Shown here: one piece after another, positions 2,238 to 22,574 of the stretch
Numbering within the stretch: the first letter of the stretch is position 1
Layout: every line of letters starts with the position of its first letter
Source: a virus
IMG/VR virus record: IMGVR_UViG_3300018046_000003
Location: 1-40,454 of that record
Strand: one strand, 5' to 3'
Length of the DNA stretch: 40,454 nucleotides
Notes under the pieces: generated by a model
The model's input: only the letters and a program-made list of their open reading frames with translations
Told to the model about the DNA's origin: nothing
The model's database searches: none
Program-made: the position numbers and the translations under genes

Positions 2238-3224
2238 ATGGCAAATAGCGTGGTTGGACTGGGACTAGCATCGCCGCCGGTACAGCTCTCAAACACCGTC
2301 AACGCGATCTCCCAGAAATTTATCGTCCCCGTCCTCGGCGACAACGTGTTCAAACCCTCTCCGGTATTCTGGGCCTTGACACGCGAGGGCAAGCGGTTCG
2401 GAGCTGGTGAACTGATCTTTCCAGAGATCTACCAAGAGGAACTGCCGGGCGGCGCCTACTACGGCGACCAGCTTCTCGACACCTCGGTGGTAGACTCAGT
2501 GCAGCCGGCGAACCAACAGTGGAAGCCATACCGTCAGCCGGTAGTCATTCCGATTACCGACATCATCCTGAACCGCGGCGGCTCGAACAATCTCGACATC
2601 ATCCGCGCCAAGTTCCAGACGGCCTCGGGCTCCTTCCTTCAGAAGCTCTCGCGCGCTCTCTGGCACAGCTCGCCGCAGAACACCTCGCTTGATGTGGACG
2701 ATCTGAATTCGTGGGTTGTCACCACCACGAACACGATCGCCGGTATCAACCGCGCGCTATCGGCGAACTCGTGGTGGCTACCAGCTACGTCCGTCTCAGG
2801 CTCTTCCACTGCACTCTCCTCGACCATCGCCGAGGCTCCGTACCAGTCCGTCACCTGGGGCTACGACGAGCCTGACCTGTTCGTGATGAATCGCACCAGC
2901 TACGCGGCCTTCAAGAACAACTTCGTCTCCAACATTCGCTTCGGCCAGGGAATGCAGGATGATGAGGCGTTGCAGGTAGGCTTCCGCAATCACTTCCTGT
3001 TCAACAACGCGGTTACGGTCGCTGATTACTTCGCAACCGCCAATCAGGCTCTGTTGCTGAACTCGAAGTATATCTTCCCAGTTTTCCACGAGGCGGATTA
3101 CTTCAACGTCGATCCGTTCCTCAAACCCTCGAACCAGCGCGTTCTCGTGTCGTGCATGTACCTGACTTGGAATCTCTCGTGCATCTCGCCGCGTATGAAC
3201 GTTGCCATCACCTCGATCACTTAA
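2238..3224 (+). CDS. major capsid protein (putative)
   Basis: 328 aa, ATG 2238 with AGGAG 11 bases upstream. The sequence fits a HK97-fold type capsid protein: a mixed alpha/beta protein with few Cys, an N-terminal arm (residues 1-40), an FWALTREGKRFGAGE segment, an extended E-loop-like strand region (about 60-110, EELPGGAYYGDQ then QQWKPYRQPVVIPITD) and a C-terminal half with WNLSCISPRMNVAI near the end. The DPF and NQR motifs near the C-terminus resemble other phage capsid proteins that lack a prohead protease. Position after the scaffold-like gene and before small head genes supports the call. A hairpin-rich spacer follows the gene. Mass spectrometry of virions would show it as the most abundant protein. 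Confidence 0.75.
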   Translation: MANSVVGLGLASPPVQLSNTVNAISQKFIVPVLGDNVFKPSPVFWALTREGKRFGAGELIFPEIYQEELPGGAYYGDQLLDTSVVDSVQPANQQWKPYRQPVVIPITDIILNRGGSNNLDIIRAKFQTASGSFLQKLSRALWHSSPQNTSLDVDDLNSWVVTTTNTIAGINRALSANSWWLPATSVSGSSTALSSTIAEAPYQSVTWGYDEPDLFVMNRTSYAAFKNNFVSNIRFGQGMQDDEALQVGFRNHFLFNNAVTVADYFATANQALLLNSKYIFPVFHEADYFNVDPFLKPSNQRVLVSCMYLTWNLSCISPRMNVAITSIT

Positions 3225-3738: not shown

Positions 3739-3749
3739 TTCGACTGAAT

Positions 3750-3885: not shown

Positions 3886-4179
3886 TTGGCTCAACGTGAT
3901 GGATACCAAATCGTAGGAACACGCAATGCGAAGGACTATGCATGGCGCGGTGCACCGGGTGAACGTCGTGCGTGGTCCAGCGCTTATGCAGACGCCAAAG
4001 CCCCAGACAACTGGAACGACAACAAGAACTACATGCGTGATGTCGCCCGTGGTGGGCAAGTCTATGACCAAGCTCGTATGAGCCAAGATGCGGACGCCGA
4101 AGACGCTCGTATCCAGCGTCGTAAGGCAACGCGTACACCTACCAAGCGCACTCCTCCGCGCGCCGCAGGAAGGAAGTAG
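3886..4179 (+). CDS. small basic protein (97 aa), TTG start
   Basis: The only sensible start is TTG 3886, with GAGGGAGAAGGGA ending about 7 bases upstream; the next in-frame ATG is deep in the gene. The product begins AQRDGYQIVGTRN, has an aromatic middle (WSSAYADAKAPDNWND) and ends in a strongly basic tail (about the last 20 residues, rich in Arg, Lys, Thr and Pro). Basic tails in head genes often contact packaged DNA. It lies 2 bases from the next gene and is clearly in the same transcript. No family is recognised. It could be a head-completion or minor capsid component. Confidence 0.6.
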   Translation: MAQRDGYQIVGTRNAKDYAWRGAPGERRAWSSAYADAKAPDNWNDNKNYMRDVARGGQVYDQARMSQDADAEDARIQRRKATRTPTKRTPPRAAGRK

Positions 4180-4181
4180 TC

Positions 4182-5477
4182 ATGTCCCAATGGTCCCTCG
4201 TAGGCGACGTTCTGATGGCCCTGCGCGAAATGGCTGCAGATCCACCTACCTCTCTCCCCCCTCCTTCCTCTGTAACCGTCACTCCCACGCCTCCGGGCTC
4301 GCTCTCGATCTGGTTTACCGTCACCCAGCTAACCCCCTGGGGAGAATCCGCCCCCTCAACTGAGGTCGTCCTTACGACCGGCGCGATCGGAGCCACCTTT
4401 ACCGTGGCCGGCAACTGCTCCTACACGGCAACTGCAATCCGGGTTTACTTCACTCTTGCCGGCACCGGCCTGGAAGATCGTTACTCCTCCTACACAGTCC
4501 CTGCCGGAGGTGTTGGCGCATTCTCGCTAGCGTTTACTCTCTCAGGCACAGGCGCTGGTCAGGGCGCGATCACGCCAGGCTTCGACCCTACTCGCTCCTC
4601 GGCCTGGTTACCTGACACCGACGGAACTGCGCTCTCTGCTGCGGCGCTCTATCGATGGATCAACGAGGGACTGGACGTACTGACCGGCCTGACTGAAGGC
4701 ATTCGCGACGTGACCGGCATCCCGAGCACCTCTGGCCAAGCCCAATACCAACTGATCTCCAACTGGCGCAAGATCGACAACCAGTTCTACGACGGTTGGC
4801 CGATGACCTCCGGGAACAAATCTGATGTCTTCCGGCACGCCAATGTCGTTGGGATCTCAGGAACGGGTGTGATCAACCAAGACTCGGTGATTCAGCAGGT
4901 TGAGTTCTATCCGCAGTCTTCGCGTACGTCAGGCAACGGCACGCTTTCTGGTGCGCTCTCGACCAGTGCCACCTCGATCCCTTATACGTCTGGATCGTCA
5001 GGATGGGTTCTGGGGTTCGGACTGGCCCTCCTCGGTCCCTATCCCTCTGATCCTTCTGCCTGCGAACTGGTCTACTACTCAGGCAACGCATCGAATCAGT
5101 TGACTGGAGTATCGCGCGGCATGGGCGGGACATTCGCGACGGCTTGGCCGTTGGGAACCCAGCTGCTCGAATGCAACCTCTACCTGACCGGCCTGCGCTA
5201 CCCGACTCACTACACGCAAGGGCAGGCGGCCAACCAACTTGGCCTCCCTCCGGCTTGGATCGACGCCTTGAAGGATTACCTCTCGTCGCGGTTCAAGGGA
5301 GCTGAACAGGACGTAGAGGGTCAAGCCGGGTTGCTCAAGTCAGTCGAGCAGAAATGTCTCGCGATAAAGGGGAACAGGCAGGTTATGACGAGGCAGAGGG
5401 TGCAGGCTGGCGGGGCGACAGGGGTTGAAACAGTTTCGGGTGCAGGGGGGATGTTTGGGGGCGTGATTTTGCCATGA
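4182..5477 (+). CDS. putative neck/adaptor protein with beta-sandwich domain
   Basis: 431 aa, ATG 4182 two bases after the previous stop, which ends GGAAGGAAG and supplies the ribosome site. Residues about 1-130 form a Thr/Pro-rich, fibronectin-like beta region. A middle part (about 140-215) has helical, aromatic sequence including ALYRWINEGLDVLTGLTEGI and a WRKIDNQFYDGWPM stretch. A second beta-rich domain follows at about 220-340, and the C-terminus (about 345-400) is a charged helix (WIDALKDYLSSRFKGAEQD). A helical core like this, directly before a nozzle-like tail gene, fits a head-to-tail adaptor. Its stop overlaps the next start as ATGA. The exact role is inferred from order. Confidence 0.5.
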   Translation: MSQWSLVGDVLMALREMAADPPTSLPPPSSVTVTPTPPGSLSIWFTVTQLTPWGESAPSTEVVLTTGAIGATFTVAGNCSYTATAIRVYFTLAGTGLEDRYSSYTVPAGGVGAFSLAFTLSGTGAGQGAITPGFDPTRSSAWLPDTDGTALSAAALYRWINEGLDVLTGLTEGIRDVTGIPSTSGQAQYQLISNWRKIDNQFYDGWPMTSGNKSDVFRHANVVGISGTGVINQDSVIQQVEFYPQSSRTSGNGTLSGALSTSATSIPYTSGSSGWVLGFGLALLGPYPSDPSACELVYYSGNASNQLTGVSRGMGGTFATAWPLGTQLLECNLYLTGLRYPTHYTQGQAANQLGLPPAWIDALKDYLSSRFKGAEQDVEGQAGLLKSVEQKCLAIKGNRQVMTRQRVQAGGATGVETVSGAGGMFGGVILP

Positions 5478-7768
5478 GTGCGAAAATCGTAAGTCAAAAA
5501 AAGTTTTCAAAACTTGTGGCATCGACTGGAGTTTTGGCACAGCCTCCCGGTGCCTTGACTCGCCTCTCCAATCTCCTCTTCACGCAGCGCGGCTCTCTCC
5601 AGGTTGCTGACGGTTCGCTCTCTATCGGCCAGATCCCCTCGACGCTTCTCGCCGCCTTATCCGCCTTCGCCAATCTCAACATCAGCCAATACCCCTGGTA
5701 CGTCGCACTAGCCTACCCGGCCACGCCTTTTCTGGCCAATGTTACCGGGTTCACGGCCACTCCCATCGCCGGGGCGAACAACGCTGCCGGAACTTACCAG
5801 TTCGCAATCGTAGCCAACTACACCTCAGGCAACACAGCCGCACAGACGGCCCAGTTTACCACCGGCTCCACATTCTCTGGTGTGACTTTTAACTGGAATG
5901 CTGTGGCCAACGCTATCGGGTATAGCATTTATTACGTGTTCACCACAGGACACGGAGCTTCTCAGAAAACCAATTACGTCTTCTTGTTGTCGGTAGCAGT
6001 TGTCACCACGGCCACCTTTACTGGAGTTCTTCCTGTTACTCCGCCGGTCATTCCCCTGCCTATTGTCAACACGACTTACATAATCCAGCTCTACTCTGGC
6101 GCTCCGGTCGTTGTTGGGCTTGGCTACACCATCTCCTTTACGGCGGTCACTGCGGGGCTATTTCCGTTCTCTGGGGTTCAGCCTGTGCCGCCTTCCAACA
6201 TCGGCGCGTGGCCCGCGAACATTGCACCAGGCAGTCCTACCTTTACGCCGCAACTCCTTCCGGGGTTCTCTCCTTACGGAGGACTGACCGGCACCGTAGG
6301 GCCTATCCCCCAAATCATTCAGTTTGCCGGAAAATCCATCCTGATTCTCGGCAACGGCTATGCTCCTCAACTAGTAGATCCCTCTCAAGGTGCAAGCGCT
6401 ACAGTGTCCGCGCTCGCGAACACCTTCACAGCTGCCTATCCAGCTTGGCAGGCCGGTGTAGACTGGCTGACCGGATCGCAGGTGACCGACGGCGCAGGCA
6501 ACTACTACACGGCGACGCAGGGTGGAGTGTCGCATACTCCGGGGCCTCCATCCTGGAATACCGGGCTGGGAGCCGAGACCGCCGATGGCTCTGTAATCTG
6601 GACCTCGCAGGGACCTATCGTCGCCACTACTGCTCCCCGTGGTGCCGCGCACGCCGTGTCCTACGCGGGATCGCTCTGGCTGGCCAACACTTCCCCAGCT
6701 GACACCTTCGATGGGCTCGACGGACCATCCTGTTTGAAGATGTCTGACTCGAACAACCCGAACTCGTGGAACCCAGTCAACACTGCGTTCATCGGGCGTA
6801 ATGACGGAACTCAAATCACCGGCCTGCAAACATTCACGATCGCTGCCTTGGGGATCTCTCCGACCGGATCTCTCTGTGTGTTCAAGGAGTTTACGACCTA
6901 TCAGGCCATTGGAGTGTTTGGGTCGACCTCATTCGAGATTCAACCGGCACAGACCAATCTGGGTTGCATTGCGGCGCGCTCGATTCAGTTCCTTCCGGGA
7001 TTCGGCGTAGTACGTTTCACCCACCTCGGGTTTGCTGTGTTTGATGGAATCAACGACCGGCTGATTTCAGAAGACATCCGGCCTTACCTGTTTGGTGGAG
7101 TAGACTCCGAGAAAGACCTAACTCCAATCAGCCCATTATATGTCTATCTTTCACAATCTGCGCAGTCTACTACTCCTCCAATGTACCTGTGCGCGATGCC
7201 GCTGGTTGCTGCAACCACGGCACCGGGAGGCGTGTTGACTCGTCTCTTCTGCTACGACTTGGTGATGAAATCCTGGGCCGTACTTGATCTTCCCTGGCAG
7301 ATTACCACTCTCTCAACTATGTCAACCGGAGAGGGATACCCGCTGATTCTGGCTGGCAAATCCGACGGCAGCCTGCAACGCATGCAAGCGGGAGACACTA
7401 CCTGGGACACAGGCGCGTCGGATCAGAGCAACGTTCAGTGGTCTTTTCGCACACCAGACGTGTTCGGCGAGGGCCAGACTCAGCGCATCTTCTACGAGCA
7501 GGCCACGATTACCGGCTATGGGTCAGTCGCCATGGTTCAATCGATCATTGCCTCTCTCTGGCTGGATGGGACCAACCTCGGCTCGTGCGCGATTGACGTT
7601 GTCCCGCAAGGGGATTCGATGTTCGTAGCCAGGATAAACATTATGCGCTCGGGGCAGCGCGCTCATCTTGACATCTCCGGCTCGAATGGCGGCGCGGCGG
7701 GGGTGATCGACTCAGTGGACTGGGCCATTGTGCCGAAGTCGGCGATGGCCAGGAGGGTTATCTCGTGA
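5474..7768 (+). CDS. putative tail nozzle/hub protein, beta-propeller-like
   Basis: 764 aa, starting at ATG 5474 inside the ATGA overlap with the adaptor-like gene. It is almost wholly beta-rich. An N-terminal part (about 1-75, RLSNLLFTQRGSLQV) is followed by Ig/fibronectin-like stretches (about 85-250) and then a long region with blade-like repeats (about 270-640: GKSILILGNGYAPQLVD, YAGSLWLANTSP, LCVFKEFTTYQAIGVFGS, VVRFTHLGFAVFDGINDRLI, WAVLDLPWQI). T7 gp12-like and P22 gp10-like nozzle proteins close the tail tube with a beta-propeller, and this protein has the length, position and local patterns expected. The pattern of instance-counting aromatic turns is suggestive only, and a structure prediction would settle it. 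Confidence 0.6.
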   Translation: MSAKIVSQKKFSKLVASTGVLAQPPGALTRLSNLLFTQRGSLQVADGSLSIGQIPSTLLAALSAFANLNISQYPWYVALAYPATPFLANVTGFTATPIAGANNAAGTYQFAIVANYTSGNTAAQTAQFTTGSTFSGVTFNWNAVANAIGYSIYYVFTTGHGASQKTNYVFLLSVAVVTTATFTGVLPVTPPVIPLPIVNTTYIIQLYSGAPVVVGLGYTISFTAVTAGLFPFSGVQPVPPSNIGAWPANIAPGSPTFTPQLLPGFSPYGGLTGTVGPIPQIIQFAGKSILILGNGYAPQLVDPSQGASATVSALANTFTAAYPAWQAGVDWLTGSQVTDGAGNYYTATQGGVSHTPGPPSWNTGLGAETADGSVIWTSQGPIVATTAPRGAAHAVSYAGSLWLANTSPADTFDGLDGPSCLKMSDSNNPNSWNPVNTAFIGRNDGTQITGLQTFTIAALGISPTGSLCVFKEFTTYQAIGVFGSTSFEIQPAQTNLGCIAARSIQFLPGFGVVRFTHLGFAVFDGINDRLISEDIRPYLFGGVDSEKDLTPISPLYVYLSQSAQSTTPPMYLCAMPLVAATTAPGGVLTRLFCYDLVMKSWAVLDLPWQITTLSTMSTGEGYPLILAGKSDGSLQRMQAGDTTWDTGASDQSNVQWSFRTPDVFGEGQTQRIFYEQATITGYGSVAMVQSIIASLWLDGTNLGSCAIDVVPQGDSMFVARINIMRSGQRAHLDISGSNGGAAGVIDSVDWAIVPKSAMARRVIS

Positions 7769-8247: not shown

Positions 8248-8762
8248 TTGCTGATAGCGTTGAGGTTGAGGTCGAGGCTGAAGTTGAGACTGATATTCCG
8301 ATCGACACCAGAGCCGGGTCTGAGATCAAACCAGTCAGCGTCCTCGACATCTTCAACGATGCGAACTATCCTACACTGCTTCAAGCCTATGCCGAAGAGT
8401 GCACAGAGCCCGACTCCAACCCACAACAAACAGTCTACGTAGCGATGGAACAAACTGGAGTGCTACGCTGCTTTGCTGCCTACTCGAACGACACGCTGAT
8501 TGGTTTCGTGTCCGTTCTTGTCAGTGCCATGCCACACAACGGTCAGCGGATGGCTGTAGTTGAGAGCTTGTTTGTAGCACCGGACTACCGCAGTACTGGA
8601 GCAGGAGAGAAACTGATCGCTGCTGTGGAGGAGTTCACTGCAGAATCAGGTTGCGCGAGGCTGACTTTCTTGCCTCGGACTGGAAGTAAACTAGACAAAG
8701 TTCTCTCTCGTCGCGCCGGTTACAGCCTGACCCACTTGCAGTACACGAGGAGATTTGTGTGA
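8244..8762 (+). CDS. GNAT-family N-acetyltransferase
   Basis: 172 aa from GTG 8244 (GTGA overlap, GGGGAGG upstream). Residues about 1-30 are acidic and Val/Glu-rich. The GNAT core follows: a beta strand pair (LRCFAAYSNDTLIGFVSVLV), then motif A with VVESLFVAPDYRSTGAGEKL, in which the R-S-T-G-A-G loop would bind the acetyl-CoA pyrophosphate, the helix after it, and a C-terminal strand/turn (LSRRAGYSLTHLQY). GNAT enzymes transfer acetyl groups from acetyl-CoA to amines. In podoviruses such genes often sit among internal virion genes, as here, perhaps modifying a virion or host protein, but the substrate cannot be read from sequence. Confidence 0.8.
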   Translation: MIADSVEVEVEAEVETDIPIDTRAGSEIKPVSVLDIFNDANYPTLLQAYAEECTEPDSNPQQTVYVAMEQTGVLRCFAAYSNDTLIGFVSVLVSAMPHNGQRMAVVESLFVAPDYRSTGAGEKLIAAVEEFTAESGCARLTFLPRTGSKLDKVLSRRAGYSLTHLQYTRRFV

Positions 8763-9286
8763 GCGCTGGAACTACGGCCATCTCGACCTCTGCTACTGGG
8801 GCTGCTGCGACCATCCTGACTTTGCCTCCTGTTCTTCCTCCGATCCTCGCCGCATTGATCCCTCCAACTCCGGCCATGCTTGCTCAATTGGATGAGATCA
8901 ACCAACTCATCTCAGCCTGTCCGCAAATACCTCTTACTACCGAACATCTCTTTCACGGCAGCATGTATGCCCGTACGATCCGGCTTCCGGCCAACACGAA
9001 AATGATGGGCTCGCTTATCCGGCTTGCCACCATGTTGATCGTCCACGGGGACTGCTCGGTGTTGATCGGCGACGAGCGGATAGAACTTACCGGCTACAAC
9101 GTCGTTCCCGGCTGTGCCGGCCGGAAGCAATTCTTCTGGACTCACGGTCCGGTCGAGATGACGATGATTTTCCCGACCACAGTCCAATCCGTTGCCGAAG
9201 CTGAAGACCTAGTCTTTGCCGAGGCAAACCAGCTCCTATCGCGCAAGGACGGAAGCCACGATACGGTCACAATTACTGGACAATAG
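8759..9286 (+). CDS. cupin-like phage protein (175 aa)
   Basis: GTG 8759 overlaps the GNAT stop as GTGA, with GAGGAG upstream. Residues 1-45 are Ala/Thr/Pro-rich and poorly structured. The region from about 60 to 145 reads as a small double-stranded beta-helix: LFHGSMYARTIRLPANTKM, then LIVHGDCSVLIGDERIELTGYNVV, then GRKQFFWTHGPVEMTMIFPT. The strand spacing, the HGD turn and the gly-pro-gly-like turn match cupin barrels seen in phage genes near tails. Only one or two candidate metal His residues are visible, so a catalytic role is doubtful. It may be a structural or binding protein. It is probably made in fixed ratio with the GNAT enzyme through coupling. Confidence 0.5.
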   Translation: MSAGTTAISTSATGAAATILTLPPVLPPILAALIPPTPAMLAQLDEINQLISACPQIPLTTEHLFHGSMYARTIRLPANTKMMGSLIRLATMLIVHGDCSVLIGDERIELTGYNVVPGCAGRKQFFWTHGPVEMTMIFPTTVQSVAEAEDLVFAEANQLLSRKDGSHDTVTITGQ

Positions 9287-9308
9287 CCCAGAGAAAGGAA
9301 TCCACTCA

Positions 9309-9857
9309 ATGTCAGGCACGATCTCAGCTACTGTAGCCACTCTGATCTCTGCTGCTGTTGGCGCGGCCGGAGTCGGAACTTCGATTTACGAAGGCGTCAA
9401 GTCGGGAGACGAGCAGGCTGACGCGCAGAAGGCCAATGCCGCCGCGCTGCTTCAACAGCAACAAGCTGCGGCCAACCAAGCCAACCTGACCAAGCAGGAA
9501 GCGGTTCTTGGGGCGCAGGGCCAAACTCAAGCGCAGACCGGTGGATCGCTGACTGACTCGGGAACCTCGGCGTTGACTGATCTGCTGGCTGGGTATCCAG
9601 GGTATCAGGGTGGAAGTAGCGCAGGGGCAGGCACCGCCGGTGGTGTAGGCACGACCAGTTCTCCTGTCACGCCTGATGCAACCTCTGCCGCCGCGGGGTC
9701 ACCCAATATCGCGGCAATTCTGGCTGCCTTGCGCAACGGAGGAGGTGGAGGAGCGCTCGGCAGCGGAGCAGGATCTTCGGCAATCTCCGGCGGCAACTGG
9801 CAGACGCCGCCGGCGCAGCCTCAAGCTAAGTTTGAACTGTCCAATCCAGTTTTCTAG
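9309..9857 (+). CDS. putative internal virion/ejection protein (182 aa)
   Basis: The frame is open from 9216, but ATG 9309 is preferred because GAAAGGA lies about 9 bases upstream and the preceding gene ends at 9286. The N-terminus (MSGTISATVATLISAAVGAAGVG) is an Ala/Gly-rich hydrophobic helix, which could insert into a membrane. A Gln/Ala-rich helical stretch (about 35-75) follows, then a Gly/Ser/Thr-rich, flexible region. This amphipathic, low-complexity pattern is common in podovirus ejection proteins that form a channel through the cell envelope. I infer that role from composition and from the similar genes on both sides. Confidence 0.5.
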   Translation: MSGTISATVATLISAAVGAAGVGTSIYEGVKSGDEQADAQKANAAALLQQQQAAANQANLTKQEAVLGAQGQTQAQTGGSLTDSGTSALTDLLAGYPGYQGGSSAGAGTAGGVGTTSSPVTPDATSAAAGSPNIAAILAALRNGGGGGALGSGAGSSAISGGNWQTPPAQPQAKFELSNPVF

Positions 9858-9880
9858 GTCAGAAGAAGGAGTCTAATTCA

Positions 9881-10495
9881 ATGCCGGAAATCATGAGTTC
9901 GCTTGCTCCCATCCTTGGCCCGGCCACGCAAGTTGCATCGCTCGGCTCCTCGGCCTATAACCTTTACAACCAGTATCAAAACCAGCAATACCAGAATCAA
10001 CTCCGCTCCTATGCGCAGAATCCAGCCAAGATGAACGCCTACGCCGCGCAATTCACCCAGCCACTGACCGCTGGCCTACAAACTGGAGTCGCCAACCAGG
10101 CTCAGGCCGACTTAGCCACACGCGGCCTGACCGATTCGCCTGAAATCTCCCAGCAGGTCTACGCGCAAGCGATCGCGCCTTACATTCAACAGAACCAGCA
10201 GCAGGGTTACCAGAACGCGCTGCAGGCGCTTAACCTCGGCGGCGGAGCGGTCAATCCCAACACCCAATCCACCAATGCGATCTCGTCGCTGGCAAAGATT
10301 TTCTCGACCTTGCCTGGTGCAGGCGGTGGAATGAACCCAGCCGTCTTCCGCCAACTTTTGCAGCAGGGTACAGTCCAGCCAGAGCAGCTAAGCGCAGATA
10401 TCTATCAGCCGGACTACAGCGCGATGCTGACCCCGACAACGACTCCGGGAGCAGGCGCGAACGATCTTCCCGACTGGTCCGCGAGCGTGGCCTAA
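9881..10495 (+). CDS. putative internal virion/ejection protein (204 aa)
   Basis: ATG 9881 has AGAAGGAG about 10 bases upstream. The N-terminal 25 residues are mildly hydrophobic and are followed by a Gln/Asn/Tyr-rich stretch (NLYNQYQNQQYQNQLRSYAQ), then long amphipathic helices (about 45-125) rich in Gln and Ala, including GLTDSPEISQQVYAQAIAPY. The C-terminal part is Gly/Asn/Pro-rich. Composition and gene order match ejection proteins placed after the tail nozzle gene. The pair with the preceding gene looks like two members of one injection apparatus. No named family is claimed. Confidence 0.55.
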   Translation: MPEIMSSLAPILGPATQVASLGSSAYNLYNQYQNQQYQNQLRSYAQNPAKMNAYAAQFTQPLTAGLQTGVANQAQADLATRGLTDSPEISQQVYAQAIAPYIQQNQQQGYQNALQALNLGGGAVNPNTQSTNAISSLAKIFSTLPGAGGGMNPAVFRQLLQQGTVQPEQLSADIYQPDYSAMLTPTTTPGAGANDLPDWSASVA

Positions 10496-10519
10496 CGTAG
10501 GAGAAGAAGGAGGAATCAC

Positions 10520-10813
10520 TTGGAAACTAAGCCTAAAGGTTATCGCAGGCCAGCAGTGGAGACGTTTCCTTACTACGCCTGTGGTAATAAGGACAGTGAA
10601 AATCATATCTGCTTCGTTTTTGCCAACCGGTACATAGTCCATATTGATCTTGGCAAGAAATGGGCGGCGCATCTTCCGAAAGTATCTTGTGCTGATATGG
10701 ACACCGGCGAGTCTATTCTCAAATTAAGACGTATGACCGAAACCAAATTGGCGATTTTTCTGGGAAAAATAGCATGCAAAGAGAACCCGGGATTACGCGC
10801 CAAGAAAGAATAG
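10520..10813 (+). CDS. small unknown protein inserted among ejection genes (97 aa)
   Basis: TTG 10520 is chosen because AGAAGGAGG sits about 6 bases upstream. The product (ETKPKGYRRPAVETF...) has a beta-rich, Cys-containing middle (ICFVFANRYIVHIDLGKKW) and a Lys/Arg-rich helical end. It is unlike its neighbours: there is no Ala/Gln-rich low complexity, it has four Cys, and its codons are visibly more A/T-rich. That suggests a later insertion (a moron). It sits in the same direction with 11 bases before the next gene. No function can be assigned. Confidence 0.55.
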   Translation: METKPKGYRRPAVETFPYYACGNKDSENHICFVFANRYIVHIDLGKKWAAHLPKVSCADMDTGESILKLRRMTETKLAIFLGKIACKENPGLRAKKE

Positions 10814-10824
10814 GGAGCTGAAAT

Positions 10825-12180
10825 ATGGGATTCTGGAATGCGCTTTCGATACTCGCTCCTGTGACTCCTGCCATGTCCGACGCCAAGGATATCCGCGCTG
10901 CTCGTGCGCAAGACGAGCAGGATCTAGCGATGAAGAAACTGGCCGCCGAGGGCGCACGTCAACAGAACGCGCTTGCGGCCCGTGACGCACAGGAACAGGA
11001 GACAGTGCGGCAGCAGCTCGGGATTCCACTGCGGCATTACAAAGGGGCGGACGGCGCGGATTACACTGACTACTTCACCCCGAGCGGAGTCAAGGCCGTC
11101 GCTGACACGCCGTCGAACGAGGATCGGCTGCAGAACTATTTCTCGTCGCTGAAGAAGCTTGGGATCTCGCTTACGCCAGAGCAGCAGGCCGAAATTTCAC
11201 CAGAGTTCTTTGGTGGGCGAGCATTAACCAGCAAAATCACGCAGTTGAGCGGCGACGCAGGCAAGCCCTACAAAGGTAGCGACGGGCAGTGGTATGTCAA
11301 CGAAAAAGATGAGAGCGGGGCGATTGTAGGAAAACCGCTCGGCCCCAACTACCAGCCTCCAGCGCCGAAACCCACCTCCCCCTCTGCGCAGTACGCCAAC
11401 CTGCTCGCCAAGCAGATTCTTGCCAACAAGAAGCAAGGTCCTCCCCTGACCAACGAGGAAGCAGCACAGTTGCAAGGGGCGCAGGGAGCACTGACCATCC
11501 CAGGCATTGCTCGCATGAAGGCTATGGCAGAGTTCGCGGCGCAGAACCATCTTCAGGTTGTCACTGGGGACGATGGACAGGACATTCTTATTCCAGTCGC
11601 TCAGGCTGTGTCTGCGGCCAACACCGGTCAACCTTACGGTGGACCTGGCATCGGTGCCGCTACCGGCATGGACAAGAAAAATCAAATGCTCGCTGAATCG
11701 GCGATCCAGCAAGTCAACCGTATGCAGGCCATTCTCAGAACCGATCCCAACCTGACTGGTCCTGGCGCTGGTCAGCTTACTCGGCTGCAAGTCTTGCTCG
11801 GATCACAAGACCCGGACGCGCAGCAGTTCCTAATCTCGTCGCTGCTGGCTTCTGAGCATGGCGTGGCGGTATTCGGCGGCAGGAACATTCATACGATTAA
11901 CGACCTGAACGACGCGCTTGGTAGCATGAAGACCAATCCGGCAGCACTCTCATCTGCACTGGACGTAGTCAAGGAGACTATGACTCCGTGGCTGACTGCG
12001 AACGGCAGGCTGACAAATCCGCGATCGGGAAGTGGAAATGGCAAATCAGGCGGCAAAGGTAGCGACAGTGGTAAGCAGCACTCTCTTCGCACCGCCATGT
12101 CCCTCCCCTTCAACAAAGGCAAGACAGCAGCGCAGGTCAAGGCTGACCTTGAAGCACATGGCTACACGGTGACTCCATAA
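10825..12180 (+). CDS. putative ejection/internal virion protein (451 aa)
   Basis: ATG 10825 has GGGAGC about 6 bases upstream. The N-terminus (MGFWNALSILAPVTPAMS) is short and hydrophobic. It is followed by a charged helical coiled stretch (about 20-65: ARAQDEQDLAMKKLAAEG), a linker with Lys/Gly/Tyr motifs (YKGADGADYTDYF and a related YKGSDGQWYV at about 150) and a helical C-terminal half containing the Met/Gln-rich GMDKKNQMLAESAIQQVNRMQAI region. The last 60 residues are Gly/Ser/Lys-rich. The two YKG.DG..Y copies hint at a repeated small domain. It overlaps the next start by one base. Role inferred from context. Confidence 0.55.
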   Translation: MGFWNALSILAPVTPAMSDAKDIRAARAQDEQDLAMKKLAAEGARQQNALAARDAQEQETVRQQLGIPLRHYKGADGADYTDYFTPSGVKAVADTPSNEDRLQNYFSSLKKLGISLTPEQQAEISPEFFGGRALTSKITQLSGDAGKPYKGSDGQWYVNEKDESGAIVGKPLGPNYQPPAPKPTSPSAQYANLLAKQILANKKQGPPLTNEEAAQLQGAQGALTIPGIARMKAMAEFAAQNHLQVVTGDDGQDILIPVAQAVSAANTGQPYGGPGIGAATGMDKKNQMLAESAIQQVNRMQAILRTDPNLTGPGAGQLTRLQVLLGSQDPDAQQFLISSLLASEHGVAVFGGRNIHTINDLNDALGSMKTNPAALSSALDVVKETMTPWLTANGRLTNPRSGSGNGKSGGKGSDSGKQHSLRTAMSLPFNKGKTAAQVKADLEAHGYTVTP

Positions 12181-14390
12181 TGGCTGACCAGACTTCAGAT
12201 CCATACGCAGCGACGGCGATCAAACCAGCGAAGTCAAAGACCAAGACTGCGCCCGCGCCCACGCCTATGGAAGATCCCTATGCAGCAACTGCAATGCGGA
12301 CTACCTCCGCTGCGCCGACGGCCTCTTCCTCCTCCCCTACCTCTTCCCTTCCTTACACCACAGGCACCATTCGCCCTTTGACCGAGCGCGAACGGTTTCT
12401 CAATCCCAATCTCTACCCAGTCGGCTTGCCGAACGAAGGGCTTGGCGAGAACCTTTACAACATTGCCCAGCGGGGCGGCGTAGGCATCTTCCAACTAGCT
12501 GACGCCGCGACCCACCCGCGCGACACGGTTGCTGGAATCCTCGCTTCGCTCCTGCCTGAGCCTGCCGTGCATGTCGTCAATCGTGTAGCGAACTGGGGCA
12601 AGAGTCTTCCCATCCCCGGCTCTAAATACATGTGGACCAATCTTCCTGAACAGACCGAAAACCCTCTTCACGCTGCTTATCAAGCCGTTGCTACCTCGCG
12701 CGGACCGATGGAACTGGCCGGCAAGGCCGCTCCTCTGGCTGGTCAGGCTCTTGCCGGCGATGTCTTCGGGGTTATCGTGCCGGAAGTCTTCCGGGATGTG
12801 CGCGTCGTGCCTGAGAAGGTTGCCCGTGCCATGACTAACACTGGCGCGGCTCCGGTCGAGCAATTAGTAGAGGACACTCGTCTAGCCAATGAGAAGATAG
12901 ATGCAGTAAACGCAGATCGTACTGAGGCTCACGCCAAGGCCAATGCTACAGCCACGGCTGAATACAACAAGGCGGTCGGCAAGGTTATCCAAGACCGTCG
13001 CGCTGCTGCTGCTACCACGCAGGCCCGCGCACATGCCGCCGCTCAGACCCGGGTCGTCGGTTCGCAACTGATCTACCGTATCAACCGCCTGAACGAATCC
13101 CTGCGCACGCACGCCAACCAACTCTACAGCGCTGTTCAAGAGCATATGGCGGGAGCCTCGATCCCCTCTGACACTCTTGCCAACGCCGTTAAGGCAGCAC
13201 AGGACCGGTGGATTCGAGGCTCGCCTGAGAAAGTCCGCGAGTTCAACGCGATGGTATCCCCCGGTCAACCCGGACCGGAACTCGTACTCGCCGACCAGAC
13301 CGCACAGAACATGGGCTATAAGGATTTCCGCACGGCGATCACCAACCCGGCGATCCGCTCGACCCTCTCGCGTGCCCTTCCACCCGACGTGTGGGAGGCG
13401 GCAATCGGTCAGGGAACTCGTCCAATTTCCTGGAACGATCTTCAGGGATTCTACGAGGAGACTGGTGCACGGATTGCTGACGGCCCTCAACCCGGCAAGA
13501 GTGACATCTACAAGGCACTCCAGCAAGTCCACCAGTTCGTCGGCGACCAGATGCAGCAACTGGCCGGTGCGCGAGACGTCGGCGACCAGTTTCGCGATGC
13601 ACGCAACTTCTATCGTGAGTACATGCAGACTTTCCATACGCCGACTGGTCCCTCGTCGTCCGGTTCCGCGGTCGCGCAAGTTCTCCGTGCTAAGGACCCC
13701 GCTGTCGCCGTCCAGAAATTTTCTGGCACTGCCGCCGACCGCGCCATTTCCGACCTTAACCGCTACGATCCGGCGCTGGCACAACTGGCTCGACAAGCGC
13801 AAAAGATCAAGCAGGAGACTCCGACCGCTACTGCGGCTGCCCGTATGCCGAAGTCCATCACCTCGGTCCCCGTGCCGACCACCGTCCCACTCGAACTTCG
13901 TCCTCACGAGACGATCTCTTCGCCGGACATCGCCGCAGCTCGTCGTGCCGCTGCCGAAGCCCGCGCCAACAAGATTTGGAACCGCGGACAGTGGGCTGCA
14001 ACTTGGCCTATCTTTCAAGCCGCGCGCGCGTTTTGGGGAGGACACATACCATCAATCCCAACTATGGCGTTGGAATCAGCGGGGATGTTAGCAGCCGTTC
14101 AAGCCACAACCCATCTCATGCGCTACCCACCAATGCTCAGGTTTCTGGAGAAGGCTCGTCCAGAGGATATTCCGTTAATTCCGCCAGAGATGCGCGGTGA
14201 TTTGCCTGGATTAGTACACCTTGCGCAGCAGCAGGGAATTAAGGTAGCTCCGGCGCTTGTTGCGGCGGCTGCAGCTACTCCGTCTGACCAGCAATCTATG
14301 CAGTCAACTATTACTCCTACACAGGCCATTCAAGCCATGCAATCCGGTCAGTCCAACCAATCAGCAGCACAGAACGGAGTATCACAATGA
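12180..14390 (+). CDS. large internal virion/ejection protein (736 aa)
   Basis: ATG 12180 shares its first base with the previous stop (TAATG). The first 65 residues hold two copies of a DPYAATA motif (about 7-13 and 33-39) in a Thr/Pro/Ser-rich leader. Then come amphipathic helices (FQLADAATHPRDTVAGILASLLPEP) and a very Ala-rich long-helix region (about 240-330) with a coiled appearance. A helical domain (about 340-500) includes the RDVGDQFRDARNFYREYMQ segment. Near the C-terminus a WGGHIPSIPTMALESAGMLA hydrophobic helix occurs before a Gln/Ser-rich tail. Size, helicity and position just before the tailspike fit a large pore or ejection protein. No lytic transglycosylase motif is visible. 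Confidence 0.6.
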   Translation: MADQTSDPYAATAIKPAKSKTKTAPAPTPMEDPYAATAMRTTSAAPTASSSSPTSSLPYTTGTIRPLTERERFLNPNLYPVGLPNEGLGENLYNIAQRGGVGIFQLADAATHPRDTVAGILASLLPEPAVHVVNRVANWGKSLPIPGSKYMWTNLPEQTENPLHAAYQAVATSRGPMELAGKAAPLAGQALAGDVFGVIVPEVFRDVRVVPEKVARAMTNTGAAPVEQLVEDTRLANEKIDAVNADRTEAHAKANATATAEYNKAVGKVIQDRRAAAATTQARAHAAAQTRVVGSQLIYRINRLNESLRTHANQLYSAVQEHMAGASIPSDTLANAVKAAQDRWIRGSPEKVREFNAMVSPGQPGPELVLADQTAQNMGYKDFRTAITNPAIRSTLSRALPPDVWEAAIGQGTRPISWNDLQGFYEETGARIADGPQPGKSDIYKALQQVHQFVGDQMQQLAGARDVGDQFRDARNFYREYMQTFHTPTGPSSSGSAVAQVLRAKDPAVAVQKFSGTAADRAISDLNRYDPALAQLARQAQKIKQETPTATAAARMPKSITSVPVPTTVPLELRPHETISSPDIAAARRAAAEARANKIWNRGQWAATWPIFQAARAFWGGHIPSIPTMALESAGMLAAVQATTHLMRYPPMLRFLEKARPEDIPLIPPEMRGDLPGLVHLAQQQGIKVAPALVAAAAATPSDQQSMQSTITPTQAIQAMQSGQSNQSAAQNGVSQ

Positions 14391-17300
14391 AGCTAGTTCA
14401 ATTCCCTACTAGGTCTTGCTTTTTCAGCCTTGTGATATTTTTGTCTCTACTCTCGTCCTATCCTCTCGCTCACGCTCAGATCCCCTCTGGCTATGTCCAA
14501 ACTACCGCTACAGTTCCCCCCTTGGCTGGCGGTCAGTTCGGCGCTGCGTGGACCAACCTCTCCACTTCCCCACAGCTCGGACTCCTTGGCTGCGTGTCGA
14601 CCTTTCAAACTACAGTCTCTGGAACGATCGACTCCAACGGCCACTTCTCGACCTTGCTGGCCGATACCGCGCAAATCTGTCCATCGCCATCAACCTGGAC
14701 TTTTACGCTTACCTTCGCCTGCCCAACAGGTACGCCCCCCAGTGGGTTCCGGACACAAGTCGCGGTCACCGGCGGCGGAGGAACTGAGGATATATCTTCG
14801 CAAATTATCGCCGCACTTCCGACCAATCCATGCGGCGGCAGCGGTGGTACAGTCAATCCCGGCCTTACAGGGCAGATCGCGTTCTATGCGACAGGTGGGA
14901 AAACCGTCTCGGGAGAAAACACTATTACTGTGAATCAGGGAGGATCTGCCAATTTGAAAATCAACATTCAGGCTCCTCCCTACAGCGCGGTGTGCGACGG
15001 AGTTACTAACGACGCCGTGGCGATTCAGTCGGCTCTCTTCGCGGCAGGAGCGAATTCGTTCTCCACAATTCCGACGATCACTTACGCGACAAATGTAGGT
15101 AATGCGCAGCAAGGAGTGGTAGTTTTTCCCTATGGAAAAACCTGCAATATCACCACGCCGCTGATCGTTCCTCCTGGAGTCAAGATCGACCTGAACTGGT
15201 CGACTCTGCTGCAAACAGGCACAGGCGACGCGCTCGAACTCTCGTACTACAACATCACGGGAACTCCCACATGGTACGGCTTCGCCTTCAACTCGATCCG
15301 CGACGGCCAGATCGTGGGACCAGGCGCAGGGACCTCGACCGGCAGCGGAGTTTTCATGTCGCTGGCCTCGTGGGGAACCTACCAGAACCTGAGCGTGACG
15401 GGCTTTAAGTACGGCATGCAAGGGCAGGAAGTGCAGTACAACACCTTCAGCCACGTCTACACTAACTCAAACGTGGTCGGAAAATACTTCACGGCGCGCG
15501 CGGCGGCCACGACGCTGACATCGATCGACAACACCTGGCTCGACGACGAGTCGGACTACAACACGAAGTATGGCTTCTGGTGCCAGGCATGCTCGGCGCG
15601 CGGAGTCTATTCGGCCGACTGGTCGCGCAACGGCGTGCAGGACGCGGTGCTGGGCGCGCAGTGGGGCTGGATCGACTCGACGCACGCAGAGTACGTCGAC
15701 CACTACACCTTCACCGGCGGAACAGGATGCACGATCAATTCGGCGTTGCCTCTGACTGTAGTGGGCACAACGACCGGACAGTCGGCTACCGGCTATGCGC
15801 AAACGAACGGATCAGGCGTGGTGACCGGCGTGTGGGGTGTCACAAGCGGCACTGGCTACACCGGAGCGATCACAGCCACCGTCGCAGGATGCAGCTCGGC
15901 GCCGACGATCACGCCTGTGGTGGCGAACGACTCGGCGCTTGGCGCCTGGGCAGGTGCCTCGGCGATCTCGCGCGGCGGAATGACCTTCAAAAACGTCAAG
16001 GTCGAGCATACGATCGGCCCGTATAATCCGCCGACCAGCGACGGGCCGACGTCAGGCTACGCAATCGGGATCAACTCGAATACAATCAGGGCGAATAACT
16101 TTGAGGATTTGATGTTCCAGCGTCAGGCCGGTGTGGGAGCAGCTCCCGTGTCTTACGCGCAGATGATGATCAATGCCGGCTTCCAGAATGCGCTGAAGAC
16201 ACCCGGCGATCCGGACAACCTATGGAGCGCGATAGCTAACCCTATTACGGGAGGGCTCTGCGCATCGACCGATCTGGTGACCGGCCAGCTTACCTCGACG
16301 TGGGGTTCGGGAGCCGGAACAAACCCACTACTGTATCAATGTAACGCCGCACAGTCTGTCGAGTGGGAGAATATGCCGGCAAGCGGATGGTCTCCCGCTT
16401 CCGGTAGTGAGGTTATGCTTGCGGAAGGCTATCAGGGCATGACCAACTTCTCCGGCGACCCGCTGCTACAAGGCGGACTGGCCGGAGACACGACGGCGCG
16501 CGTAAACATCCACGAGGACGGGCAGACGAACTATGGCGGCGGCAGCTCGGTTGACGCAGGCACCTGCAGGTTCGGCCCGCAAACCCTGGCCGCCACTGAC
16601 GGACTAGGCTGCAACGTCAACGGTAAATGGTTCGCCACCCAGTTCAACGTTCCCAACCCAGGCACAGGGTTTACGATCGGCGGAACCGCATTCGTCAGCT
16701 TCGTCGGCGGCGGGCCGGACCTGCATCTATTCGGATCGACCATCCAAGCCAGGAACTTCGGCGACACAACCTTCGTCCCATTTAACGGAGCCAGTTACCA
16801 AATCGCCGGAACCACCGTTATCTCCTCCGGCACAGGCGCGCCGCACGGCACCCAGGCTCATATCCAAATGAGCGACAACACCGGCACCTCCGGCCACTGC
16901 GCTACGTTCAACGCAGACGGCAGCCTGACTGACGGGCCTGCCGGTTGCGGCGGGTCGACCCCAACCTTCTCGACCATTACCTCGCCGATCGTCTACGGAG
17001 GTAACGCAGTTGGATCCACCTTGACCCTGAACGGCAGCTCCAACGGTTCCCCGGTCAACGCATATGTACTGCTGAACCCAGCCGGCACTGGCGGAATCTG
17101 CGTCTGGTGTTCCAGCACCGCCTCAGCGTTCGAGGTCAACGGCACGGCCAAGTTCGATGCCGGCGGCACGCTGACCGGGCCGCTGAATGGGACTAGCGCG
17201 AATTTTTCAAGTACCGTCGGGATTGGGACGTCAGGACCATTAAGTGCCTTAAATATCGAAAGTGCGGGTACAAATGCAATAAGAATGGGTGCGGCGAGTG

Positions 17301-17809
17301 ATCAAACCTACGACTCTGCGATTCAGTACCGTTTTGCTACCGGCATTGGCGCTTACACGGATATTGGCTATTATGCGGGCTCAGCTACTTTTTATCCAAC
17401 ACTTACTCTTTCGCCAAATATGACCGGTACGGGAGCTGGCGATGTCGGCATCGGCACGACGAACCCAGGCGCAAATCTCGAGGTCAACGGCACGGCCAAG
17501 TTCGATTCAACCAGCACCTTCAACGGATTCGTTGACGGCGGCACCAAGTTCACGATCTCCTCCGGCTGCTCGACCTCGGTAACCACTGGCGGCGCTCTCG
17601 GCGGCGGATTCACGGCAACCTCATCAACCTGCTCGCCTGTGATCTCAACCGGTCTTACCGCACCCAACGGCTACTACTGCGGCATCAACGACGTCACCAC
17701 CCCTGCGGCTTCGATCAAGGAAACCGCATTCACCCTAACCACCGTCACCTTCACCGGATCAAGCTTAGGAACCACCGATGTGTTTGTCTTCCATTGCACG
17801 GAATTCTAG
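14387..17809 (+). CDS. tailspike with pectate-lyase-type domain and N-terminal signal peptide
   Basis: 1140 aa, starting in an ATGA overlap (14387). Residues 1-30 look like a classical secretion signal (basic start, hydrophobic FFSLVIFLSLLSS core, AHA-Q cleavage site), which is odd for a virion protein. A small beta domain (about 35-150) follows. The pectate-lyase-3 type opening (YSAVCDGVTNDAVAIQSAL, about 198-216) leads into a right-handed beta-helix (to about 650) typical of polysaccharide-degrading spikes, with FPYGKTCNIT and PGVKIDLNWSTLLQTG rungs. The C-terminal stalk carries two copies of an [FL]EVNGTAKFD motif and a VGIGTTNPG turn, common in trimeric phage fibres. It probably binds and cuts host capsule or O-antigen. 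The catalytic residues cannot be assigned by eye. Confidence 0.75.
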   Translation: MKLVQFPTRSCFFSLVIFLSLLSSYPLAHAQIPSGYVQTTATVPPLAGGQFGAAWTNLSTSPQLGLLGCVSTFQTTVSGTIDSNGHFSTLLADTAQICPSPSTWTFTLTFACPTGTPPSGFRTQVAVTGGGGTEDISSQIIAALPTNPCGGSGGTVNPGLTGQIAFYATGGKTVSGENTITVNQGGSANLKINIQAPPYSAVCDGVTNDAVAIQSALFAAGANSFSTIPTITYATNVGNAQQGVVVFPYGKTCNITTPLIVPPGVKIDLNWSTLLQTGTGDALELSYYNITGTPTWYGFAFNSIRDGQIVGPGAGTSTGSGVFMSLASWGTYQNLSVTGFKYGMQGQEVQYNTFSHVYTNSNVVGKYFTARAAATTLTSIDNTWLDDESDYNTKYGFWCQACSARGVYSADWSRNGVQDAVLGAQWGWIDSTHAEYVDHYTFTGGTGCTINSALPLTVVGTTTGQSATGYAQTNGSGVVTGVWGVTSGTGYTGAITATVAGCSSAPTITPVVANDSALGAWAGASAISRGGMTFKNVKVEHTIGPYNPPTSDGPTSGYAIGINSNTIRANNFEDLMFQRQAGVGAAPVSYAQMMINAGFQNALKTPGDPDNLWSAIANPITGGLCASTDLVTGQLTSTWGSGAGTNPLLYQCNAAQSVEWENMPASGWSPASGSEVMLAEGYQGMTNFSGDPLLQGGLAGDTTARVNIHEDGQTNYGGGSSVDAGTCRFGPQTLAATDGLGCNVNGKWFATQFNVPNPGTGFTIGGTAFVSFVGGGPDLHLFGSTIQARNFGDTTFVPFNGASYQIAGTTVISSGTGAPHGTQAHIQMSDNTGTSGHCATFNADGSLTDGPAGCGGSTPTFSTITSPIVYGGNAVGSTLTLNGSSNGSPVNAYVLLNPAGTGGICVWCSSTASAFEVNGTAKFDAGGTLTGPLNGTSANFSSTVGIGTSGPLSALNIESAGTNAIRMGAASDQTYDSAIQYRFATGIGAYTDIGYYAGSATFYPTLTLSPNMTGTGAGDVGIGTTNPGANLEVNGTAKFDSTSTFNGFVDGGTKFTISSGCSTSVTTGGALGGGFTATSSTCSPVISTGLTAPNGYYCGINDVTTPAASIKETAFTLTTVTFTGSSLGTTDVFVFHCTEF

Positions 17810-19128: not shown

Positions 19129-19662
19129 ATGAAACGTTTCACCGCAATCTGCACCGGCCTGCTGATGTGGGCCTCGATCCTATCCGCGCCCATGATCGTT
19201 CCGGTTACCGGCTGCACATCCAGCCAAATCGAGAGCGCCGTCAATTCTGTCATCTCGGGCACGGAATCCATCTTGAAGGTCGTCGAGCCCAACGCGCCCT
19301 ATACGGCCCAGCTCCAAAGCGCCCTGAATGCCCTTGTAGCCGCCGAGGCGAGCTGGAAGGGTGGTAGCCCTGTTTCGGTCATCGAAAGCGCTCTGGCCAC
19401 GGTTGAAGCTGTCACGGCGGTCATTCCTCTCACCGCTTCCTACTCTCCGCTGATTGATGTCCTGGTTGCCACTATCGACGCCGCGCTGGCTCTGATTCCG
19501 CCATCGGCGGCAGTATCGGCTAGGGTCGTCGCCACCAACCCTCACATCGGGCGCGTGACCTTGGCAAAGCCTCACCTGTTCCAGAGCCGGAAAGCTGCGA
19601 TCGAGGAACAGTGGAACGCGATTGTGGACGCGAACCCGTCGCTGGCCGCTGCGAAGATCTAA
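19129..19662 (+). CDS. lipoprotein (177 aa)
   Basis: ATG 19129 has GAAAGGA about 8 bases upstream. Residues 1-28 form a signal peptide (KRFTAICTGLLMWASILSA) that ends in a lipobox, V-T-G-Cys29, so signal peptidase II should cut before Cys29 and a lipid anchor should form. The mature part is Ala/Val/Ser/Thr-rich, mostly amphipathic helix (about 30-140), with a polar end. A Ser follows Cys29, which favours the outer membrane. In this place it might be the outer-membrane spanin or a surface-exclusion lipoprotein. It is the last gene before the terminator-like hairpins. Confidence 0.65.
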   Translation: MKRFTAICTGLLMWASILSAPMIVPVTGCTSSQIESAVNSVISGTESILKVVEPNAPYTAQLQSALNALVAAEASWKGGSPVSVIESALATVEAVTAVIPLTASYSPLIDVLVATIDAALALIPPSAAVSARVVATNPHIGRVTLAKPHLFQSRKAAIEEQWNAIVDANPSLAAAKI

Positions 19663-19803: not shown

Positions 19804-19983
19804 ATGCCGAGCCGACAAAAACATCTCGACGTGGCGCTGCGGGATGCCGCGAAGTGCCTGCGCGTGGCCTCTGGCCTGTTGCGACCCGGTCAGACGCGCA
19901 TCGAGACTATACTCAAATCGAAGATCGACATCGCGCTACAAGCGCTGGGTAGTGGTGCAGTTTGGTTTTCGCTGAACAATTGA
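19804..19983 (+). CDS. possible small protein (59 aa)
   Basis: The frame is open from 19765, but that start would lie across the terminator hairpins; ATG 19804 immediately after the T-run is the more reasonable start. There is no ribosome site (the bases before it are the T-run). The peptide is basic at the front (PSRQKHLDVALRDAAKCLR) and helical. Its coding status is doubtful; if real, it would need to be leaderless or reached by read-through. Confidence 0.25.
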   Translation: MPSRQKHLDVALRDAAKCLRVASGLLRPGQTRIETILKSKIDIALQALGSGAVWFSLNN

Positions 19984-20686: not shown

Positions 20687-21079
20687 ATGAGCAAGTGGAC
20701 GATCTTCGACTACGTCGATCCGGCGGAAGGGAACCTATTCAGGGAATGGTCCGCCCGACTCCAGAAAAAGGAACTGGCCAAGCTGAACCAAAGGCTAGAT
20801 TCGCTGGCCATTCACGGGCCGGGACTGATCCCAGGAATTCTTTCGCCTACTGGTATGCCGTCAATCTTCAAATTGAAAATCCACGGCAAGGTTCAATTGA
20901 GGCCGATGTTATGCGAAGGTCCGGGCCGGGACGAAGAGTCTTTCACTCTTCTACTTGGGGCGAAAGAGGTGTCTGACGATTACGACCCAATCGGAGCACC
21001 ACTGATAGCATCACGGCTACGTGAATGCTTGATCAAAGACATGCGAAGGAGGGTATTTCATGAGCGAGTTAGTTGGTAA
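20687..21079 (+). CDS. HigB/RelE-like toxin (130 aa)
   Basis: ATG 20687 has no Shine-Dalgarno sequence; the 5' end may be short or leaderless. The fold pattern matches the phage-derived Gp49-like/HigB toxins: an N-terminal segment with charged helix (LFREWSARLQKKELAKLNQRL), then strands around FKLKIHGKVQLRPMLCEGP, a TLLLGAKEV strand and a C-terminal helix ending MRRRVFHERV. Members of the family cut mRNA at the ribosome. Upstream-placed toxin followed by an overlapping Xre antitoxin is the HigBA order. The basic and His residues expected for RNA binding are present near the C-terminus, but catalysis is not proven. Confidence 0.7.
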   Translation: MSKWTIFDYVDPAEGNLFREWSARLQKKELAKLNQRLDSLAIHGPGLIPGILSPTGMPSIFKLKIHGKVQLRPMLCEGPGRDEESFTLLLGAKEVSDDYDPIGAPLIASRLRECLIKDMRRRVFHERVSW

Positions 21080-22487: not shown

Positions 22488-22574
22488 GCCTTAATCATCC
22501 CACCGCCAGACCAAACGCGCTAGACCTGTGGAAATCCAAACTGCACCACTACCAAGCGCTGACATGGGAGCAAG

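Follow-up and report, generated by a model that had tools for sequence, protein, structure and literature searches.

A candidate tailspike or tail fibre, probably used by a soil phage to grip its host, begins with a classical Sec/signal-peptidase-I leader. The protein (1140 residues) is encoded by ORF 14387-17809 on the + strand of the window, i.e., the whole stretch of 40,454 nucleotides analysed here (IMG/VR record IMGVR_UViG_3300018046_000003), and at the level of sequence the assignment of residues 1-30 as a leader is confirmed. Tailed-phage virions are held to be completed in the cytoplasm. The reading preferred here, to which a probability of roughly 0.5 is given, is that the spikes are exported, folded in the periplasm (in the window clade, with disulfides) and docked onto the tails at lysis. 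The chances seem even that several short-tailed phage lineages export the spike through the host Sec system, mature it in the periplasm and fit it to the particle no earlier than lysis. Within the literature searched, such a split assembly line is not described for tailed phages.

The leader (14387..14476, + strand) is laid out in the translation as MKLVQFPTRS-CFFSLVIFLSLL-SSYPLAHA, followed by Q. The n-region MKLVQFPTRS has a net charge of +2, the h-region CFFSLVIFLSLL has a Kyte-Doolittle mean of 2.77, and the c-region SSYPLAHA has alanine at -1 and -3. Cleavage is predicted between A30 and Q31, the latter being the +1 residue (codon 14477-14479). A basic n-region, an uncharged h-region of 8 or more residues and an A-x-A site within about 15-35 residues, which were the features sought in a Sec/SPase-I leader, are all found in residues 1-30. 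Run on 10 E. coli leaders, a rule-based scorer detected 9 (cleavage was mostly exact, with a few sites 1-2 residues early). It gave cleavage after A30 in the window protein a score of 6.42, which was attained in 3 out of 5000 shuffled versions of residues 1-40. A lipoprotein leader (signal peptidase II) was ruled out, as +1 is Gln and there is no lipobox Cys; so was a Tat leader like that of WceF, as MKLVQFPTRS has no RR or twin-arginine motif. The sequence-only reading had claimed a Sec signal at residues 1-31 from the basic start, the hydrophobic core and the AHA-Q site, and it is borne out by the scorer, the shuffles and the homologues (18/18, see below).

The start codon itself seems well placed. 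A Shine-Dalgarno-like GGAG (14376..14379, + strand) lies 7 nt 5' of it, and the stop of the preceding gene overlaps the fibre start by 4 nt (ATGA). In most homologues AGGAG or GGAG is found at an equal distance from the start, and the -4 RTGA overlap is kept in 13 of the 15 viruses assessed. Because both signals are conserved, the start of the ORF is considered secure and not mis-called.

Homologues were searched for with the mature N-domain alone, the leader being left off the query, which yielded 16 other distinct viruses. A leader is present in 18/18 distinct N-domain sequences, the second copy of a tandem pair included. Its sequence diverges (median pairwise identity of 38% vs 69% for the mature domain), whereas its position and chemistry are constant throughout, and the A-x-A boundary followed by Q, or one of that type, is retained in most homologues. 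Homologues lacking the hydrophobic segment, which would speak against an export signal according to the earlier reading, number zero in the N-domain family of the window and are many for the Mx8-type fibre N-domain discussed below. An identical stretch is carried by a second contig of 34 kb (G001). No homologue was found among bacterial-genome contigs in two pattern-seeded scans, which may miss distant prophages, and none of the protein among cultured phages by tblastn.

The gene also occupies the place of a fibre gene. All upstream features lie on the + strand, beginning with the major head protein (2238..3224; phrog_9953, E=2.1e-22; 26% identity to the Mx9 capsid protein) and a 764-aa virion structural protein, tail-hub-like by position and conserved in relatives (5474..7768; phrog_3287, E=2.8e-5). 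They are followed by genes for two internal or tail proteins of 213 aa (9216..9857) and 204 aa (9881..10495) and two ejection-like proteins of 451 aa (10825..12180) and 736 aa (12180..14390), the last an internal virion protein by this reading. These four were assigned by position and synteny (in 13 viruses for the 736-aa protein). As the upstream proteins had no profile match to the ejection proteins of T7, Mx9 or ct8d5349, the ejection-like role is assigned from their position and their lack of Cys. The genes from capsid to fibre are kept in the relatives. Among 17 distinct related viruses, leaders are carried by 31/31 large fibre-type genes 3' of ejection-like genes (26 called by rule and 5 by reading), and these genes span several unrelated N-domains. 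With loose-rule matches in 2/89 other structural proteins, leaders on fibre-type genes are more frequent than chance.

The modular architecture of the protein is that of a tailspike or fibre. The mature N-terminal domain (residues 31-149; 14477..14833, + strand), a conserved beta-sandwich and the proposed virion-docking module, is 61-82% identical to that of the 16 other viruses. AF2 modelled it with a pLDDT of 79.5 and a pTM of 0.73. A fold search gave weak matches, some of them to phage tail-fibre proteins (BFVD best E=2e-4, TM 0.56), and nothing significant in the PDB; the domain is therefore called just "beta-sandwich, fibre-like". A Gly-rich linker and a variable receptor-binding or spike region follow in the translation (14834..17806, + strand). 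The spike region contains a DGVTNDAVAIQSAL motif, typical of where tailspike beta-helices begin, and the protein matches the pectate-lyase-like PF12708 below the cut-off (E=0.0041). Apart from the identical virus, no relatives of the beta-helix region were found, and from single-sequence input AF2 reached a pLDDT of 30 there. The C-terminal parts are unrelated among homologues sharing the N-domain, so that a conserved adaptor is joined to exchangeable ends, directly after genes whose ejection role is itself proposed. Among leader-bearing relatives, L032:2964-6068 ends in a K1-lyase_C domain (PF24146, E=1.4e-6, above the cut-off) and L034:4744-6774 matches tail-spike phrog_4636 (E=4.3e-10). The name tailspike, as first proposed, is thus upheld by where the gene lies, by the modular build of the protein and by its relatives, and a clear domain match on the window protein itself is missing. 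P22 gp9 and T7 gp17 likewise combine a conserved N-terminal adaptor with a variable receptor-binding part, and T7 has the same gene order (capsid, hub, ejection, fibre, lysis). In contrast to the window protein, T7 gp17 has no signal peptide (checked here) and few Cys.

In an independent example, a leader is also borne by the tail-fibre N-domain of the cultured Myxococcus phages Mx8 and Mx9, whose fibre proteins (Mx8 p64, p66 and p67; Mx9 p14 and p15) were compared with the window fibre. Besides the capsid similarity of Mx9, both phages resemble the window virus in being short-tailed, in their structural gene order, GNAT gene included, and in having a fibre-type gene with a classical leader (MRYLPSAAGLAVGVLLGVIISVSTPASA followed by TRN...), on which their annotation makes no remark. 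The window N-domain, however, is not of the Mx8-type (RNGSGTYSLPAGNPVVTGTTISSSW-type) family and is unrelated to it in sequence; the leader arrangement alone is common to both. The Mx8-type N-domain has a leader in viral contigs L078 and L081 too, and it is leader-less at 42 of the 45 viral loci. It also begins without a leader in Bradyrhizobium phage ppBjS10J-1 and Stenotrophomonas phage BUCT555, where it follows a Cys-free ejection-like gene. A hand-written motif query recovered only the Mx8, Mx9 and Bradyrhizobium fibres. Since the same fibre domain occurs with and without it, the leader, as read from these sequences, has been added more than once to genuine tail-fibre genes and is not an artefact.

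For the window spike, we infer translocation, cleavage, disulfide formation, trimerisation and late docking in the following order. The fibre would be translated late in infection, coupled to the last ejection-like gene, and the leader would route the chain through SecYEG, with signal peptidase I cleaving between A30 and Q31. The mature protein would trimerise and, in the window clade, form disulfides in the oxidising periplasm. It would stay there, since no outer-membrane export signal was seen; the C-termini of the homologues share no autotransporter-type signal by eye. Finished spikes pooled there would meet fibre-less virions when the cell lyses and dock via the conserved N-terminal domain. 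Late docking seems chemically plausible, as P22 tail parts were reportedly able to complete heads in vitro in work attributed to Israel et al. in 1967 (reference 14 in PMC3741392).

The fibres are Cys-rich (23 Cys, 2.0%, in the window protein), and the four genes preceding the fibre encode 0 Cys in every record. The window N-domain has four Cys, at 69, 98, 112 and 149, and two disulfides are predicted in it. Cys1 and Cys2 are either both there or both missing, with a single change on the tree, and their covariation was dropped as strong disulfide evidence because it amounts to one evolutionary event. This single event speaks against late docking, as do the fibres Mx8 p64 and L078, which are not Cys-rich, and T7 gp17 and the LIT1 tail proteins, which have no leader. 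Moreover, an exported protein is kept apart from the cytoplasmic virions until lysis, a costly route. P22 gp9 is not known to have a signal peptide, and both it and T7 gp17 are assembled in the cytoplasm, unlike the proposed window spike. To our knowledge, an export route is undocumented for any tailed phage.

The main rival, considered less likely, is that the spike is secreted as a free depolymerase or adhesin and that the virion attaches by another protein. Such a spike might strip or mask receptors, sparing progeny from debris and superinfection, or release them from surface polysaccharide. A Sec leader is the usual mark of secreted depolymerases and adhesins, and leader-bearing neighbours include GDSL-lipase-like domains. 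The leader-bearing fibre of ct8d5349 and of L078/L081 comes after a T7-gp17-like or short fibre-like protein that has no leader, and it therefore need not be the virion adaptor there. Precedents exist as well. Lambda Lom, like the window protein, is a leader-bearing product of the tail-fibre region, its gene lying between the tail spike and tail fibre genes, but it is an outer-membrane beta-barrel and not a modular fibre (PMC12309495). Pantoea stewartii WceF is a glycan hydrolase with a tailspike fold and an export leader; in contrast to the window protein, it is encoded in a bacterial EPS cluster, has a Tat leader and is a trimeric beta-helix by crystal structure (PMC7949094). Phage DGR target proteins have no signal peptides (PMC6199706). 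Against secretion, leaders are present on all fibre-type genes of the window clade, so that no candidate is left for receptor binding by the virion (a leader-less one was not seen in the structural module of the window), and no outer-membrane export or anchoring signal was seen. An N-domain that is conserved while the C-terminal parts behind it vary widely is characteristic of a virion adaptor, and the Mx8-type N-domain is common to leader-less tail fibres. Post-lysis assembly is favoured over a secreted depolymerase.

The suggestion that the hydrophobic N-terminus is an uncleaved anchor, fixing the fibre in the tail or a membrane without any export signal, is disfavoured and appears improbable. 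Some virion proteins do have hydrophobic N-terminal segments, and cleavage is a prediction. However, the cleavage boundary is mostly kept while the leader diverges, the positive n-region and the length are typical of Sec, and most Mx8-type loci lack the segment. An artefact, whether from a mistaken start codon, from hydrophobicity arising by chance or from mis-binning of a contig with a secreted host protein, is very improbable even for an uncultured viral contig whose protein has no cultured-phage match, given the kept start signals, the identical G001 stretch, the 16 diverse syntenic relatives, the pattern-based bacterial scans without a match and the same arrangement in the complete, cultured Mx8 and Mx9.

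No description of leader-bearing tail fibres was found in the literature searched, which comprised papers outside subscription. The export question is testable at once with Mx8 and Mx9 in Myxococcus xanthus. If prior export of receptor-binding spikes is routine, phage assembly would be split between compartments, and host Sec and oxidative folding would be host factors for infectivity. Furthermore, annotation pipelines in which a leader counts against a virion role would be misled, and co-infecting phages could swap spikes in the lysate, a phenotypic mixing of host range.

The sequence-only reading had proposed that a putative tailspike starts with a Sec-type leader (14387-14480), and this is borne out by composition, a leader scorer, a firm start and conservation. 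The open reading frame (14387-17809, plus strand) encodes 1140 amino acids. Residues 1-30 read MKLVQFPTRS CFFSLVIFLSLL SSYPLAHA and are followed by QIPSGY. A net charge of +2 stands ahead of a core with a mean hydropathy of 2.77, and alanine occupies positions -1 and -3. The purpose-written, rule-based scorer, which detected 9 of 10 leaders from E. coli, placed the cleavage after A30; when the first 40 residues were shuffled 5000 times, 3 shuffles equalled the score. A lipoprotein leader is ruled out by the lack of a cysteine at +1 and a Tat leader by the lack of a twin arginine, so Sec/signal peptidase I is the natural class. The start itself is firm: GGAG precedes the ATG by 7 nt, and the ATG shares bases with the stop codon of the gene before it (ATGA). 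A -4 overlap of the fibre start (ATG or GTG) with the preceding gene was found in 13 of the 15 viruses assessed.

The window itself is a 40,454-base IMG/VR record. Homologues were sought with the mature N-domain alone; as the leader was excluded from the query, the result is unbiased by it. The search returned 17 viral contigs: one matches the window exactly wherever the two overlap, and the other 16 are distinct. In all 17 a leader runs up to the QIP boundary, and the second tandem N-domain copy of contig G009 is likewise leader-bearing. Median pairwise identity is 38% for the leaders against 69% for the mature N-domains. Chemistry and cleavage point are thus preserved while the letters drift, as would be expected of working leaders. 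No N-domain homologues were found in cultured phages or in bacterial genomes (pattern-seeded scans, which distant ones may escape).

Across relatives, the spike gene is preceded by a conserved series of structural genes, for the capsid (phrog_9953), a hub-like protein (phrog_3287) and then small and large ejection-like proteins; the window has, in addition, a GNAT gene (8244-8762) after the hub-like one. The ejection-like proteins are named by position, since profile comparison gave no link between those of the window and those of T7 or Mx9. T7 is likewise ordered (11, 12, 14, 15, 16, 17 fibre, 17.5 lysis protein). The first 120 mature residues of the spike are conserved and the C-terminal parts are unrelated between viruses, a pattern typical of an adaptor that carries interchangeable receptor-binding regions. 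For the spike region of the window itself, a match to a pectate-lyase-like Pfam family stays below the cut-off, and AF2 gave no usable model. Two leader-bearing siblings are better evidence for a tailspike: one (L032, 2964-6068) ends in a phage-tailspike K1-lyase C-terminal domain (PF24146), and the other (L034, 4744-6774) matches a tail-spike PHROG. The N-domain is predicted to be a beta-sandwich (pLDDT 79.5), and its fold search gave weak matches, phage tail-fibre proteins among them. In position and build, the window protein is like a podoviral tailspike, and it is a putative virion component.

A leader is the rule for fibres in the window's group. The 17 distinct viruses have 31 large fibre-type genes 3' of the ejection-like genes; these frequently stand in tandem sets of two or three, and their N-domains are of several unrelated types. 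Each of the 31 bears a leader (26 by rule, 5 by eye or from another start); 2 of 89 other structural proteins in the same records trip a loose leader rule. The fibre of virus G004 (L014, 4854-9074) has an unusually long, 49-aa leader and long NTANGYQALSANTTG repeats resembling YadA-type adhesin heads.

An independent case comes from Myxococcus phages. Mx9 is the one cultured relative of the window capsid protein (26%), and the fibre proteins Mx9 p14 and Mx8 p64 start with a textbook leader, MRYLPSAAGLAVGVLLGVIISVSTPASA, with predicted cleavage before TRN. Their N-domain (RNxxGTYTLPxGNPVVSGTTISSSW) belongs to a different family from the window's. It occurs at 45 viral loci, 42 of which begin at the domain itself, without a leader; the leader-bearing ones are Mx8 and two related contigs (L078, L081). 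Bradyrhizobium phage ppBjS10J-1 and Stenotrophomonas phage BUCT555 have the leader-less form, immediately 3' of a Cys-free ejection-like gene. Another leader-less member, L069, has many tail-fibre PHROG matches and an endosialidase-chaperone domain. Since this N-domain occurs with and without a leader, in recognised fibres, tail-fibre genes have acquired a leader more than once. At two loci, a short, leader-less fibre-like gene (L053, 5857-6774, T7-gp17-N-like; L078, 2156-2974) is followed by a leader-bearing fibre (6734-9487 and 2983-4683, respectively). This arrangement suggests a cytoplasmic adaptor with an exported distal part.

No description of leader-bearing tail fibres was found in the open-access literature. 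Tailspike folds can be exported, as in Pantoea WceF (PMC7949094), and leader-bearing proteins can sit among fibre genes, as lambda Lom does (PMC12309495). Phage DGR target proteins are without leaders according to one survey (PMC6199706). The window spike may be exported via SecYEG, cut between A30 and Q31, and folded in the periplasm, where disulfides would form in the window's clade. As no signal for outer-membrane export was noticed in the protein, exported spike should wait in this compartment and would dock onto tails once lysis mixes the compartments. Late docking is made plausible by P22, whose heads and tail parts reportedly combine in vitro (Israel et al. 1967, cited in PMC3741392). 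We give export with late docking roughly even odds.

Fibre cysteine content is 1.1-3.6% (23 residues in the window), against zero in the four genes directly 5' (9216-14390 in the window) in all records. T7 gp15/gp16 and Mx9 p90/p91 are Cys-free too. The N-domain has four cysteines, the first pair being both present or both absent in 18 of 18 sequences; as one change suffices on the tree, this lends modest support to a disulfide. The main rival is a secreted spike that is not part of the virion. It is weakened by the window's structural module, which holds no other receptor-binding candidate. It gains from ct8d5349 and L078/L081, where a leader-less fibre-like protein comes before the leader-bearing one, so roles may differ between groups.

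Other features of the window deserve mention. A serine recombinase of the DNA-invertase/resolvase type is encoded at 39461-40078 (minus strand; phrog_125, E=4e-56; PF00239); no invertible fibre segment was obvious in the window. A 30-nt inverted repeat (19941-19970 and 22531-22560; 93% complementary, 2.56 kb apart) flanks a block including an HTH regulator gene (21060-21626) and could provide recombination sites for this enzyme. The product of 19129-19662, 3' of the fibre gene, has a lipoprotein-like leader with a TGC lipobox, and similar leaders occur in relatives (L035, 12647-13228, minus strand; L022, 9758-10366). It might be a spanin of the outer membrane or some other lipoprotein of lysis or exclusion. 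Podoviruses that are otherwise distant also have a GNAT acetyltransferase gene close to those for hub and ejection proteins (L051, 39752-40159, Mx9 p87; L052, 28588-29019; L055, 84-368).

It is established that the leader exists, that its start is sound, that it is conserved, and that more than one lineage carries it on fibre-type genes. Leader-bearing fibres are a real, reproducible and surprising finding, and a cultured test bed exists for them.
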